Source: Bacteroidota bacterium (GTDB lineage: Bacteria > Bacteroidota > Bacteroidia > Sphingobacteriales > Sphingobacteriaceae). Taken from it: DNA of 64,000 nucleotides. Both the position numbers and the translations under genes were made by a program. Below the pieces are notes generated by a model that was not told where the DNA came from, ran no database searches, and saw only the letters and a list, made by a program, of their open reading frames with translations. The stretch is from NCBI GenBank assembly GCA_013286565.1, contig JABDFM010000008.1, positions 446 to 64,445 on the forward strand. The letters are read 5' to 3'. Position 1 is the stretch's first letter. The number at the start of each line of letters is the position of its first letter. Shown here one piece after another: positions 25,017 to 32,600 of this stretch.

Positions 25017-25056
25017 TATAAAACAGTAAAGCCCCTGATGGGCAGGGGTCTTTACT
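25017..25056 (-). terminator. Terminator of the tRNA-like transcription unit
   Basis: On the minus strand AGTAAAG-A-CCCCTG pairs with CAGGGG-CTTTACT (13 bp, one bulge) around CCCAT, followed by GTTTTAT. It lies 32 bases after the second tRNA-like gene. Confidence 0.75.
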
Positions 25057-25087
25057 AACCAATTATAAACCTAAATTATGAGAAGGG

Positions 25088-25203
25088 CTGTAGGAGAAGG
25101 GGTCGAACCTTCACGAAGTGGTTATTCTTATTGCTAAGAGTTTCCCAAAACCTTCGCCACCGGGACAAGGAGGTGTGTCTGCCAAAAATTTCACCATCCT
25201 ACA
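25088..25203 (-). tRNA. tRNA-like RNA with very long variable arm, copy 1 (anticodon unclear)
   Basis: About 116 bases. The acceptor stem TGTAGGA/TCCTACA is perfect and can extend by one C-G pair. The T arm is canonical (GAAGG, loop TTCGACC, CCTTC). The D arm is tRNA-Leu/Ser-like with a 3-bp stem GTG/CAC and GG in the loop. The anticodon arm is poor: CCTCC/GGTGG with a T-T mismatch around TTGTCCC, which would read GTC with U33, but base 37 is C. The variable arm has about 44 bases in two stems (CGAAG/CTTCG and TCTTA-GCAA-TAAGA). No CCA is encoded. It is a real structured RNA, but not an ordinary tRNA. Confidence 0.65.
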
Positions 25204-25211
25204 GTATATAA

Positions 25212-25285
25212 GTTTTCGGTTTTGAGTCCTGAGTTTTGAGTGAGAATATACTCACTACTTAAAACTCATTACTCACAACTAAAAC
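25212..25285. repeat. Palindromic repeat between the two tRNA-like genes
   Basis: TTTTGAGTCCTGAGTTTTGA on the left faces ACTTAAAACTCATTACTCA on the right, with GTGAG/CTCAC at the centre. It separates the two RNA genes by 85 bases. Confidence 0.65.
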
Positions 25286-25288
25286 TTG

Positions 25289-25401
25289 CTGTTGGGGAAG
25301 GGGTCGAACCTTCAAGGAGTGGTTAGTCAGCAAGCTGATTTCCCATATTCTCCGCCACCGGGACAAGGAGGTGTGTCTGCCAAAAATTTCACCACCCAAC
25401 A
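25289..25401 (-). tRNA. tRNA-like RNA with very long variable arm, copy 2 (promoter-proximal)
   Basis: About 113 bases, with the same plan as copy 1. The acceptor stem TGTTGGG/CCCAACA differs from copy 1 by compensating changes. The T arm, D arm and central segment (38 bases from GAAATTTTTGG to GGTGGCG) are identical to copy 1. The variable arm is again long, with GGAG/CTCC and TCAG-CTTG-CTGA replacing the two stems of copy 1, while the single-stranded TGGGAAA and TAACCA are kept. This covariation supports a selected RNA fold. A Bacteroidota promoter precedes it and a terminator follows copy 1. Confidence 0.65.
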
Positions 25402-25448
25402 TTGTTTTTGTTTTTAAAGAACGATAAGCATATTCGAATTGCTTATTA

Positions 25449-25480
25449 CAAATCTAACAGGACTATCAATTTCTTGCAAA
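25449..25480 (-). promoter_or_regulatory. Promoter of the tRNA-like unit
   Basis: On the minus strand TTTG (25477-25480), 20 bases, then TAGATTTG (25449-25456), a full match to the Bacteroidota housekeeping consensus. It predicts a start about 40 bases before copy 2. Confidence 0.7.
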
Positions 25481-25553: not shown

Positions 25554-26030
25554 ATGTCCCACAGAAAAGCTCAAAATTTAGAAATTGATAATCTCGACAT
25601 CCAGATTTTATCGATATTAATGAAAAATGCGACCACTCCTTACACTGAAATAGCCAAAGAGTTGATAGTTTCCGGCGGAACCATACACGTCCGCATGAAA
25701 AAATTAGAGGAAATGGGCGTAATAAAAGGCGCCAGTTTAGAGGTTGACCCGCAGAAACTGGGATACGATATCACTGCTTTCCTGGGCATCTATCTCGAAA
25801 AGGGCTCCCAGTATCACGAAGCTGTGAAGCAACTAAAAACAGTAAAGGAAATTGTAGAGCTGCATTATACCACAGGCAGTTACAGCATTTTTGCCAAGAT
25901 CGTATGCCACGATACCAATCACTTGCGCGAAGTATTAAATGAGGATATCCAGAGTGTAAAAGGTATCCAGCGTACAGAAACCTTCATCTCGCTCGAAGAA
26001 AGCATCAGGAGGCAGATCACTTTGGAGTAA
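25554..26030 (+). CDS. Lrp/AsnC family transcriptional regulator
   Basis: 158 residues. An N-terminal helix-turn-helix (LDIQILSILMKNATTPYTEI, then GGTIHVRMKKLEEMGVIKG) is followed by the RAM/ligand domain (GYDITAFLGIYLEKG, LHYTTGSYSIFAKI). It should form oligomers that bind DNA in response to an amino acid; which one is not evident. TATATTTG at 25492-25499 is a likely -7 element of its promoter. It is divergent from the tRNA-like unit with about 150 bases between. Confidence 0.92.
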   Translation: MSHRKAQNLEIDNLDIQILSILMKNATTPYTEIAKELIVSGGTIHVRMKKLEEMGVIKGASLEVDPQKLGYDITAFLGIYLEKGSQYHEAVKQLKTVKEIVELHYTTGSYSIFAKIVCHDTNHLREVLNEDIQSVKGIQRTETFISLEESIRRQITLE

Positions 26031-29347: not shown

Positions 29348-29351
29348 TGGG

Positions 29352-29460
29352 GCTTATAGAGAAAGACGGAGGGATTAGACCCTGCGATGTCTTAGCAACC
29401 TGTGCTTACAAGGTGCTACGTTCTACTTATCCGCTTCAAAAATGGATAGGAAAGATAAGC
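29352..29460 (+). ncRNA. SAM-I (S-box) riboswitch upstream of metH
   Basis: Closing helix P1 GCTTAT (29352-29357) with ATAAGC (29455-29460). Inside are the S-box core sequences: AGACGGAGGGATTAGACCCT, GATGTCTTAGCAACCTG and AAGGTGCTACGTTC, forming the kink-turn/pseudoknot arm, the SAM-contacting strand and P3. It should bind S-adenosylmethionine and lower expression of metH and perhaps metF. No classical terminator follows. A second ATAAGC at 29492-29497 could replace the 3' strand of P1. Confidence 0.9.
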
Positions 29461-29499
29461 GAAAGTCAACATTTACACCCGACTTTTCGATATAAGCTT

Positions 29500-29617: not shown

Positions 29618-32600
29618 ATGGATATTAGGAAAGAATTAGAGAAACGCATACTGGTGATTGACGGCGCGATGGGTACCATGATACAGAGGTACCAATTGAC
29701 CGAGGAGGATTTTCGTGGGGAAAGGTTTAGCAATCATGCTTCTGATCTGCGGGGGAATAACGACCTGCTGAATATTACACGGCCAGATGTGATCAAAGAG
29801 ATACACCGGGAATATATTGAGGCCGGTGCAGATATAATCGAAACCAATACTTTTAGCACACAACGTATTTCGCTGGCGGATTATAACCTGGAAGAACTGG
29901 CTTATGAGCTAAGTTATGAAGGCGCGCGCATAGCCCGCGAGGTAGTGGACGAATACAATAAAAAACAACCAGACAGACCGCGCTTTGTGGCTGGTGCAGT
30001 CGGACCAACTAATCGTACTGCTTCCATGTCGCCTGATGTAAATGATCCGGGTTACCGGGCCGTTACTTTTGATGACCTGGCCGAAGCTTATTATGACCAG
30101 GTGCGTGGTTTGGTGGATGGCGGTTCTGACCTGCTGCTGATAGAAACCATATTTGATACGCTGAATGCCAAAGCGGCTATTTTCGCCATTAAACGCTACG
30201 AGCATGAATGCCGCGAAGCGGGTAAGGATCGTCACTTTTACCGCAGTACATCCAATATCATGATCTCGGGTACCATTACAGATGCTTCGGGGCGCACACT
30301 TTCCGGGCAAACGGTAGAGGCATTCTGGAATTCTATCCGCCATGCCGACCTGCTTTCTGTTGGATTGAATTGTGCTTTGGGCGCTAAAGAAATGAGGCCG
30401 CACTTACAGGAGCTTTCAGAGAAGGCAGATGTATATATTTCCGCTTACCCCAACGCGGGTTTGCCAAATGAATTTGGAGGCTATGATGAAATGCCGCACG
30501 AAACTGCGCATTTGATCGAAGATTTCCTGGATTTCGGGATGGCGAATATTGTAGGCGGTTGCTGTGGAACCACACCTGAGCATATCAAGTGTATTGCCGA
30601 AAAAGCGGCGAAGGCAACACCGCGTAAACTGCCCGAAATAGAACCTTACCTGCGTTTAAGTGGTTTGGAAGCCGTAATTCTTACACCAGAAACCAACTTC
30701 GCCAACATTGGCGAACGTACCAACATTACCGGGTCGCCAAAATTCTCCAAACTTATTTTGGGTGAGGATTACGAAGGTGCTTTGGTGGTTGCCCGTCAGC
30801 AGGTTGAAGGCGGCGCACAGGTGATCGACGTGAATATGGACGAGGGGATGATAGACTCGGAAGCTGCGATGGTGAAGTTTTTAAACCTCATCGCATCCGA
30901 ACCCGATATCTCTAAACTGCCCATTATGGTGGATTCATCCAAATGGACAGTGATAGAAGCCGGGCTGAAATGTTTGCAGGGTAAGGGTATCGTCAATTCC
31001 ATTTCGCTAAAAGAAGGCGAAGACAGATTCCGCGAGCAGGCCCGCAAAATCCAAACCTACGGCGCTGCCGTGGTGGTGATGGCATTTGACGAACAAGGTC
31101 AGGCTGATTCATTGGCCCGTCGCATAGAAATATGCAAACGCAGCTATGATATTTTGGTGGACGAAGTGGGTTTCCCACCACAGGATATTATCTTCGACCC
31201 AAACATATTAACCGTAGCCACCGGCTTAGAAGAACATAATAATTACGCGGTAGATTTTATTGGAGCTACCCGCTGGATAAAAGAAAATCTGCCCTATGCC
31301 AAAGTGAGCGGCGGGGTAAGTAATATTTCTTTCTCGTTCCGCGGCAATAACGTGGTGCGCGAGGCGATGCACTCGGCATTTTTATACCATGCTATCAAAG
31401 CGGGTCTGGATATGGGTATCGTAAACGCCGGAATGCTGGAAGTCTATGAAGAAATACCGAAGGACCTGTTAGTATTAGTGGAAGATGTATTGCTCAACCG
31501 CCGCCCGGATGCTACTGAGCGTTTGGTGGAGTTTGCAGATACCGTCAAATCCAAAGGGAAAGAAATTGTGCGCGATGAAGAATGGCGCAAAGAACCGGTT
31601 GAGCAACGCTTATCTCATGCCTTGGTTAAGGGCATTATCGAATACCTGGATGATGACGTGGAAGAAGCGCGGTTGAAATTTGCCAAGCCATTGGAAGTGA
31701 TAGAAGGTCCGCTGATGGATGGCATGAATGTGGTGGGCGACCTGTTTGGCGCGGGCAAAATGTTTCTGCCTCAGGTAGTAAAATCGGCACGGGTAATGAA
31801 AAAGGCGGTGGCCTATTTATTGCCTTTTATCGAACTGGAAAAACAAAGGGTGATCGACTCCGGCGAAGATACTACAGCCGCAAGGGCCAACGCGGGCAAG
31901 GTATTAATGGCTACTGTAAAAGGCGATGTGCACGATATTGGTAAAAACATTGTCGGCGTAGTATTAGCCTGTAATAATTTCGAAGTGATCGATTTGGGCG
32001 TGATGGTTCCGGCGCAGCGCATTATTGAGGAAGCAAGGAAACAACAGGTGGATATTATCGGCCTGAGTGGTTTGATCACCCCATCATTGGATGAAATGGT
32101 TCATTTCGCCAAAGAGATGGAGCGCGAAGGTTTTACTATTCCGCTGATCATTGGCGGGGCCACCACATCACGCATACATGCCGCGGTAAAGGTTGCGCCA
32201 AATTATCAGCATGGAGTTATCCATGTGCTGGATGCTTCGCGCAGCGTGGGCGTTTGCAGCAACCTGATGAACAAGGACCTGCGCGACAATTATATCGAAG
32301 GCATTAAAGCCGAATACGAAAAAGCCCGAGAAGCACATTTGAACAAACGTTCGGATAAACGCTTTGTGAGCATCGACGAGGCGCGGAATTCGAAGTTACA
32401 GATCAACCTGAATGGCGCTATTCCACCAAAGCCGACCTTTACCGGTACCAAGGTCTTTGAAAGTTTTCCTTTGGAGGAGTTGGTTGACTATATCGACTGG
32501 ACGCCGTTTTTCCATACCTGGGAGTTGCGCGGCAGCTATCCGAAGATATTCAATGATAAATACGTGGGTGTTGAGGCCAAAAAGCTTTTTGATGATGCCC

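Follow-up and report, generated by a model that had tools for sequence, protein, structure and literature searches.

Tandem tRNA-like RNAs in a Bacteroidota genome belong to a widespread family that probably acts outside decoding

The two tandem RNAs described here are members of a real and widespread RNA family, whose probable mode of action is that of a charged tRNA with a role outside decoding. They lie in a window, the whole 64,000-nucleotide stretch of DNA analyzed here, in which neither is called by ARAGORN or Rfam. The family itself, its covarying structure, its pattern of conservation, its linkage to a regulator and its co-occurrence with GatB are established. The function is inferred. 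The best-supported reading, which we hold with roughly even confidence, is that of a non-decoding class II tRNA-like RNA charged with aspartate, which GatCAB amidates to asparagine, under the control of an AsnC-type regulator; expression, CCA addition, charging, amidation and purpose are all inferences. No description of this RNA was found among the open PMC papers listed by our searches, which do not cover subscription papers.

Both genes are unannotated and lie on the minus strand, with copy B (25401-25288, 114 nt) preceding copy A (25203-25087, 117 nt), and most of what the first-pass annotation had said of this tandem tRNA-like pair was borne out. The acceptor stems are perfect over 7 bp, TGTTGGG/CCCAACA in copy B and TGTAGGA/TCCTACA in copy A, with two compensated changes between the copies, and each is followed by G73 and C74. 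The two copies share a canonical T arm and a tRNA-Leu-like D arm, and their variable arms, 44 nt in copy A and 41 nt in copy B (base 48 counted), contain helices that covary between the copies. Alignment columns 8-49 are the same in both, and the mean column identity of the alignment is 91%. The mismatch in the anticodon stem (U29-U41) and the C at base 37 are also present as annotated. The statement that no clear anticodon exists did not hold, as the loop TTGTCCC is readable as UUGUCCC with the triplet GUC, which is conserved in 179/183 distinct family members. The folding energy of the single sequences is not significant (z of -1.12 and +0.41); the structure is revealed by comparison between copies and relatives and not by folding energy alone.

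The promoter and terminator noted in the first pass do flank the unit. Read along the minus strand, the order is a -7 box, TAGATTTG (25456-25449), a leader that contains the inverted repeat ATAAGC...GCTTAT (25446-25424) and the element GTTCTTTAAA (25422-25413), copy B, a spacer, copy A, a 3' linker containing AATTTAGGTTTATAATTGGTTAG (25086-25057) and a terminator hairpin with the loop CCCAT (25056-25025). The motif TAnnTTTG, which we take to be the Bacteroidota -7 consensus, occurs within 120 nt upstream of 134/170 distinct units compared with 11 in shuffled controls, at a median of 46 nt before the RNA (139/177 units and 16 in the shuffled set before duplicates were merged). The inverted repeat may form a leader hairpin or serve as an operator, and GTTCTTTAAA resembles the boxA antitermination element of rRNA leaders, a likeness from which its function is inferred; the boxA-like GTTCTT is found in the leaders of 74/170 distinct units. 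Because of the tandem copies, the promoter and the boxA-like leader, the unit appears to encode a well-expressed stable RNA, a suggestion made without transcript data.

The 20-25 nt linkers between RNA and terminator are lineage-specific, with AATTTAGGTTTATAATTGGTTAG kept in several Sphingobacteriaceae genera and TTTTTAGTTTGTTGATGAAGTGTAATT found in Dyadobacter and Spirosoma. Sphingobacteriaceae units with the AATTTAGGTTTATAATTGGTTAG linker retain the terminator loop CCCAT while the stem varies. In Sphingobacteriaceae the variable arm is strikingly complementary to the 3' tail (TGGTTAG with CTAACCA), but such pairing was rejected as a general property, as pairings of at least 7 bp were present in 18/176 units compared with 16 in shuffled controls (duplicates not merged). 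A mobile or phage origin was also considered and rejected, as blastn searches of plasmid and phage collections, with one 114-base query each, returned no similar DNA.

A covariance model built on both window copies (R1) was searched against 301 genomes of the same family as the window and matched 206 at E<=0.01. In 12 of these the matches are weak throughout (E 3.6e-7 to 9.2e-11); with them excluded, the RNA is present in 194/301 genomes and 14/25 genera. A second model from 84 members (R2) was applied to 395 genomes of the class, with matches listed to E 1.2e-9 and only members of at least 100 nt counted, and places the RNA in at least 67/395. A third model, built from 103 members (R3), recovered a genome that R2 had missed (G523) and extended the family beyond the class, to three genomes of one family (f114) of another class. 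Short matches of 77-88 nt to R2 and R3 were excluded from the positive set as ordinary tRNA-Leu by length. Two of these were checked; the match in G990 is tRNA-Leu and that in G357 is a shrunken true member, so some of the other short matches could be members as well. A pattern scan yielded at least 120 stretches, 80 of which were put to the model, and the named hosts confirmed among the matches listed include Mucilaginibacter, Pedobacter, Arcticibacter, Chitinophaga, Terrimonas, Flavihumibacter, Dyadobacter, Spirosoma, Algoriphagus, Cyclobacterium, Echinicola, Belliella, Fulvivirga and Neolewinella. Pattern matches in other phyla, for example Azospirillum and Micromonospora, are unconfirmed. 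One stretch named Mucilaginibacter (L010 and L143) has the same sequence as a locus of g1, the genus of the window, which is therefore probably Mucilaginibacter. A strong member (117 bits, L154 3131-3241) lies on a contig named Ignavibacteriales bacterium UTCHB1, where a binning error or transfer is possible.

Covariation across 102 distinct sequences exceeded chance. Standard pairs filled 96.8% of cells, and 18/28 pairs showed double-sided changes. When partners were slid, only 50-59% of cells were paired and 3-5 pairs showed such changes, and 0/500 shuffles reached either observed value. Many genomes carry two or more copies.

Neither ARAGORN nor Rfam calls these RNAs in the window. ARAGORN called no tRNA there, and called none of the RNAs in 60 loci of relatives; the exception is the 77-nt homologue of G357 (L307 2001-2077, minus strand), which lacks the long variable arm and is called tRNA-Asp with anticodon ATC. 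The A34 of this homologue is unusual for an Asp-type loop. Rfam gave no tRNA match in the window at the gathering score, nor any between 24900 and 25600 at E<=10, where seven sub-threshold matches to other families were returned; microRNA-like matches at 25210-25287 were taken as chance matches to a palindrome in the spacer. The Rfam tRNA model gave a marginal score (31.8 bits, cut-off 29) to one copy in a genome of the same genus, G101.

Across 183 distinct members the ends of the molecule and the anticodon loop are nearly invariant. The acceptor has the form UGU...ACA, with U1-A72 in 182/183, G2-C71 in 183/183, and G73 and C74 in all. All five of the ordinary tRNA genes read in a same-genus genome likewise encode C74 but no full CCA, so that the 3' end of the RNA looks like that of local tRNAs, and its D arm resembles that of the local tRNA-Leu. 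The loop from 32 to 38 is mostly YUGUCUC; the four members without GUC have UUC (2) or CUC (2), U35 and C36 occur in 183/183 and C38 in 181/183. Two loop positions are relaxed. Base 33 is U in 152, G in 21 and C in 10 of 183, with A33 at the three f114 loci read, and at 37 there are 148 U, 23 C, 11 G and 1 A, which leaves 12 purines. The anticodon stem with the mismatch seen in the window, CCTCC/GGTGG, is found in 49/183, and the commonest stem (98) is the fully paired CCCTC/GGGGG. The variable arm ranges from 37 to 124 nt and contains the motif GAYAAA (or GAAAA, GAGAAA) in 118/183 and GUUGACCAC in 42/183. The variable arm is extended by a further conserved block, around GTTGACCAC, in 42/183 distinct members (e.g. 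L040 2763-2905, L041 2766-2907 and many class loci), and in L087 3001-3133, L109 1461-1606, L117 3001-3165 and L119 3001-3163 the D loop is enlarged by an insertion of ~15-26 nt.

These positions were compared with the features of known classes, and the features tested place the RNA outside tRNA-Leu, tRNA-Asp, allo-tRNA and tmRNA. It has the Leu-type D arm, U8, T loop and long variable arm leading directly from base 44 of a bacterial class II tRNA-Leu; however, G73 replaces A73, a Leu anticodon is absent, the variable arm is far longer at its extreme, and U1-A72 is nearly invariant, so that the tRNA-Leu test (A73 with a Leu anticodon) is not met. With tRNA-Asp (GUC) it shares G34, U35, C36, C38, G73 and G2-C71, whereas U1-A72 stands in place of G1-C72, the body is class II, base 10 is not kept and bases 33 and 37 are relaxed; the pair 10-25 is AU in 43, GC in 38, UA in 14, GU in 3 and other in 4 of the 102 distinct sequences. 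Thus the loop and discriminator part of the Asp test is met and the part requiring G1-C72 and G10 is not. Nor is the requirement of a standard elongator for U33 and a purine at 37. The acceptor branch of allo-tRNAs and tRNA-Sec is 8/4, 9/3 or 8/5. The RNA has a 7-bp acceptor and a 5-bp T stem, and differs from allo-tRNAs (8/4 or 9/3) in its Asp-type anticodon loop as well. It resembles allo-tRNAs and other non-canonical tRNAs in having a class II-like body outside the standard set, going by the accessible portion of PMC7609411. ARAGORN, which also models tmRNA, found none in the window or the 60 loci. The first-pass proposal that these are tRNAs of a non-standard kind or mimics of tRNA, kept by selection and perhaps serving a role other than decoding, is supported by homologues with compensatory changes, by the relaxed positions 33 and 37 and by a separate ordinary tRNA-Asp in G101.

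In the available part of PMC9976931, bacterial Asp identity is assigned to G73, G10, G34, U35, C36 and C38, the G1-C72 pair of tRNA-Asp is called crucial, and amidation of Asp-tRNA-Asn is conferred by U1-A72 and prevented by G1-C72 and U20a. Judged from its sequence, the RNA retains the anticodon loop and base 73 read by AspRS, has the determinant for the amidotransferase, including a D loop (GGCAG) with A at 20a in our numbering, and has lost bases that are conserved in decoding tRNAs. Its charging by AspRS may be poor because U1-A72 replaces G1-C72 and base 10 is variable. This pattern of conservation predicts co-occurrence with GatCAB.

We evaluated this prediction through GatB, the only subunit sought (TIGR00133, E<=0.001; 13 of all 306 GatB matches fell below the curated cut-off); none of the tests was corrected for relatedness. 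In the class sample, GatB is present in 66/67 genomes with the RNA compared with 240/328 others (Fisher 2e-7), and the one exception is the MAG of the window itself, which is 72% complete. Reassigning G523 and G357 changes these counts to 68/69 and 238/326. In a panel of two families (f1 and f36) GatB was found in 32/33 genomes with the RNA and in 4/24 without it, and a second panel gave 35/36 for genomes with the RNA. The RNA and GatB are jointly absent in several genera, and within one genus (g21) two genomes lack both and four have both.

The synthetases sharpen this comparison. AsnRS is present in 24/24 genomes of the first panel, and among its genomes with GlnRS, GatB occurs in 8/8 with the RNA and 0/10 without. 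Including 13 further genomes, in which AsnRS was not tested, GatB is found in 20/21 GlnRS-positive genomes with the RNA, the miss being G027. The converse prediction was also tested; 54/57 genomes with GatB and without the RNA lack GlnRS and therefore need GatCAB for Gln-tRNA. Genomes with both GatB and the RNA have GlnRS in 20/36 and lack it in 16/36 (with G357 filed as lacking the RNA, the GlnRS-positive counts are 3/58 and 20/35). The genomes for this comparison were chosen and not random. Three genomes with GatB and GlnRS had no match to the RNA (G012, G311 and G673), and some of these may be false negatives because R2 misses members, as it did in G523, and because G673 is congeneric with G581, which has the RNA. 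The co-occurrence offers an answer to the puzzle of why the amidotransferase is retained in bacteria that have GlnRS as well as AsnRS. The accessible text of PMC4206432 reports AsnRS, GlnRS and GatCAB together in 67 of 547 genera surveyed (Table 2; 68 in the text), 18 of which, Bacteroidetes included, have no asparagine synthetase. The same source, a paper on Bdellovibrio, proposes that asparagine is made on tRNA-Asn with the help of a relaxed AspRS and allows that GatCAB may be vestigial in some bacteria with AsnRS and GlnRS.

The gene opposite the RNA unit provides a separate line of evidence. In the window it encodes an AsnC-type transcriptional regulator of 158 amino acids (25554-26030, plus strand), of the asparagine-sensor family and divergent from the RNAs. 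The AsnC model gives it 179.6 bits compared with 89.8 for LrpA and 56.3 for Lrp; the NCBIfam AsnC equivalog cut-off of 227 is not reached, though the other models score far lower. Among proteins of solved structure its closest relative is E. coli AsnC (2cg4, E 2.6e-38), with YTTGSYSIF aligned to YTTGHYSIF. The RNA has a divergent neighbor from one protein cluster at 115/172 distinct places, with the window excluded and eight duplicated places merged, and the median gap to the nearest copy is 153 bp. By our tally this linkage extends over 15 families of the class, as well as f114 at its three loci, and at L131 the regulator gene lies between two RNA copies, the second of which is the one transcribed divergently from it. 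No gene of this cluster adjoins the RNA at the other 57/172 places, some of which are cut by contig ends, and f3, f63, f64 and f66 show no linkage in any locus read. No second gene cluster, such as a transferase or hydrolase, recurs beside the RNA across families.

AsnC-type genes are also present in genomes without the RNA. In 13 AsnC-family loci, 12 from such genomes and one a paralogue in a genome with the RNA, no asparagine synthetase was recognized beside the gene on reading ORF starts and putting three neighbors to Pfam (one without a family), and the RNA model found nothing in these loci. In E. coli, asnC and asnA form a divergent pair. The arrangement here is likewise that of an AsnC-type regulator divergent from the unit it would control, except that an RNA and not asparagine synthetase A lies opposite.

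Collectively, the reading of an aspartate-charged, GatCAB-amidated RNA would run as follows. The transcript would be processed like a tRNA, by RNase P, 3' trimming and CCA addition. AspRS would load aspartate on reading G34-U35-C36, C38 and G73, and GatCAB would recognize U1-A72 and convert the RNA-bound aspartate to asparagine. Bases 33 and 37, being wrong for the ribosome, would keep the RNA out of decoding so that asparagine is not inserted at Asp codons, and the neighboring AsnC-type protein would tune transcription to the asparagine supply. The asparagine could then be released, amounting to RNA-dependent asparagine synthesis, or passed to an unknown acceptor. The four members with UUC or CUC carry a Glu triplet and may represent the other substrate type of GatCAB. 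In Deinococcus, Thermus and Bdellovibrio, going by what is available of PMC4206432, aspartate is likewise converted to asparagine by GatCAB on a U1-A72 RNA with AsnRS and GlnRS also present; there, however, the carrier is ordinary tRNA-Asn and a relaxed AspRS is needed, whereas in the route proposed here the carrier would be an RNA dedicated to this task, its Asp anticodon suited to a discriminating AspRS. Should the RNA prove to be charged and amidated yet not to decode, tRNA-based amino acid synthesis would be separated from translation.

More tentatively, the RNA may be a dedicated cofactor on which asparagine, and perhaps glutamine in a few lineages, is made by AspRS and GatCAB and then released. 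The RNA gene would then occupy the asparagine-controlled position that asparagine synthetase holds in E. coli, an idea no firmer than the rest of this extension, for which there are no data on the distribution of AsnA and AsnB. If true, it would explain why GatCAB is kept beside GlnRS and AsnRS in many Bacteroidota.

A less probable, though still credible, alternative is that the RNA is a regulatory mimic, a decoy or sensor of an AspRS/GatCAB route on ordinary tRNA-Asn that is bound and perhaps charged, gauges or damps the route and never delivers its amino acid. The ordinary tRNA-Asn of G101 also has U1-A72, so GatCAB could act there and be retained for tRNA-Asn with a relaxed AspRS, and the AsnC linkage and the absence of a recurring acceptor enzyme beside the RNA fit this alternative. 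Bacteria with AsnRS, GlnRS and GatCAB are thought to make asparagine in just this way, Bacteroidetes being among those without asparagine synthetase (PMC4206432, from its accessible portion). Against this, the RNA retains the determinants of a true substrate in both anticodon loop and acceptor, and a mere regulator would not require that GatB be absent from 10/10 panel genomes with GlnRS and without the RNA.

We consider it unlikely that the RNA donates aspartate, asparagine or another amino acid to an unknown transferase, in lipid, cell wall or peptide tailoring, with the link to GatCAB partly phylogenetic. Such uses of tRNA exist, as a non-proteinogenic tRNA-Gly serves the cell walls of Staphylococcus aureus, and the non-decoding body, the multiple copies in many genomes, and the stable-RNA promoter and boxA-like leader would all suit a donor. 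The staphylococcal tRNA-Gly, a charged tRNA used outside translation as is proposed here, is nevertheless of a different fold class, and no FemX-like partner was seen beside the RNA, where no transferase gene recurs across families. The repeated joint absence with GatB, even inside genus g21, fits amidation better.

Less likely again is a functional tRNA for Asp codons, unusual in its body and carrying aspartate or asparagine, that decodes or deliberately mistranslates Asp codons. The GUC triplet, U33 in 152/183, the normal T and D arms and the ARAGORN call of the 77-nt homologue as tRNA-Asp are consistent with decoding, but G33 or C33 in 31/183, A33 in f114 and a non-purine at base 37 in 171/183 are not, and neither are variable arms of up to 124 nt and the mismatched anticodon stem in 49/183; G101, moreover, has an ordinary tRNA-Asp. 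Finally, a functionless, decayed tRNA-Leu duplication, to which the Leu-like D arm and the non-significant folding energy of single sequences might have pointed, is excluded for practical purposes by the covariation, the near-invariant positions and the homologues that, in many families of the phylum, show compensatory changes.

Elsewhere in the window, a SAM riboswitch (63.3 bits) was found at 29351-29461 on the plus strand, upstream of a 1239-aa ORF at 29618 that, from reading of the ORF, resembles methionine synthase.
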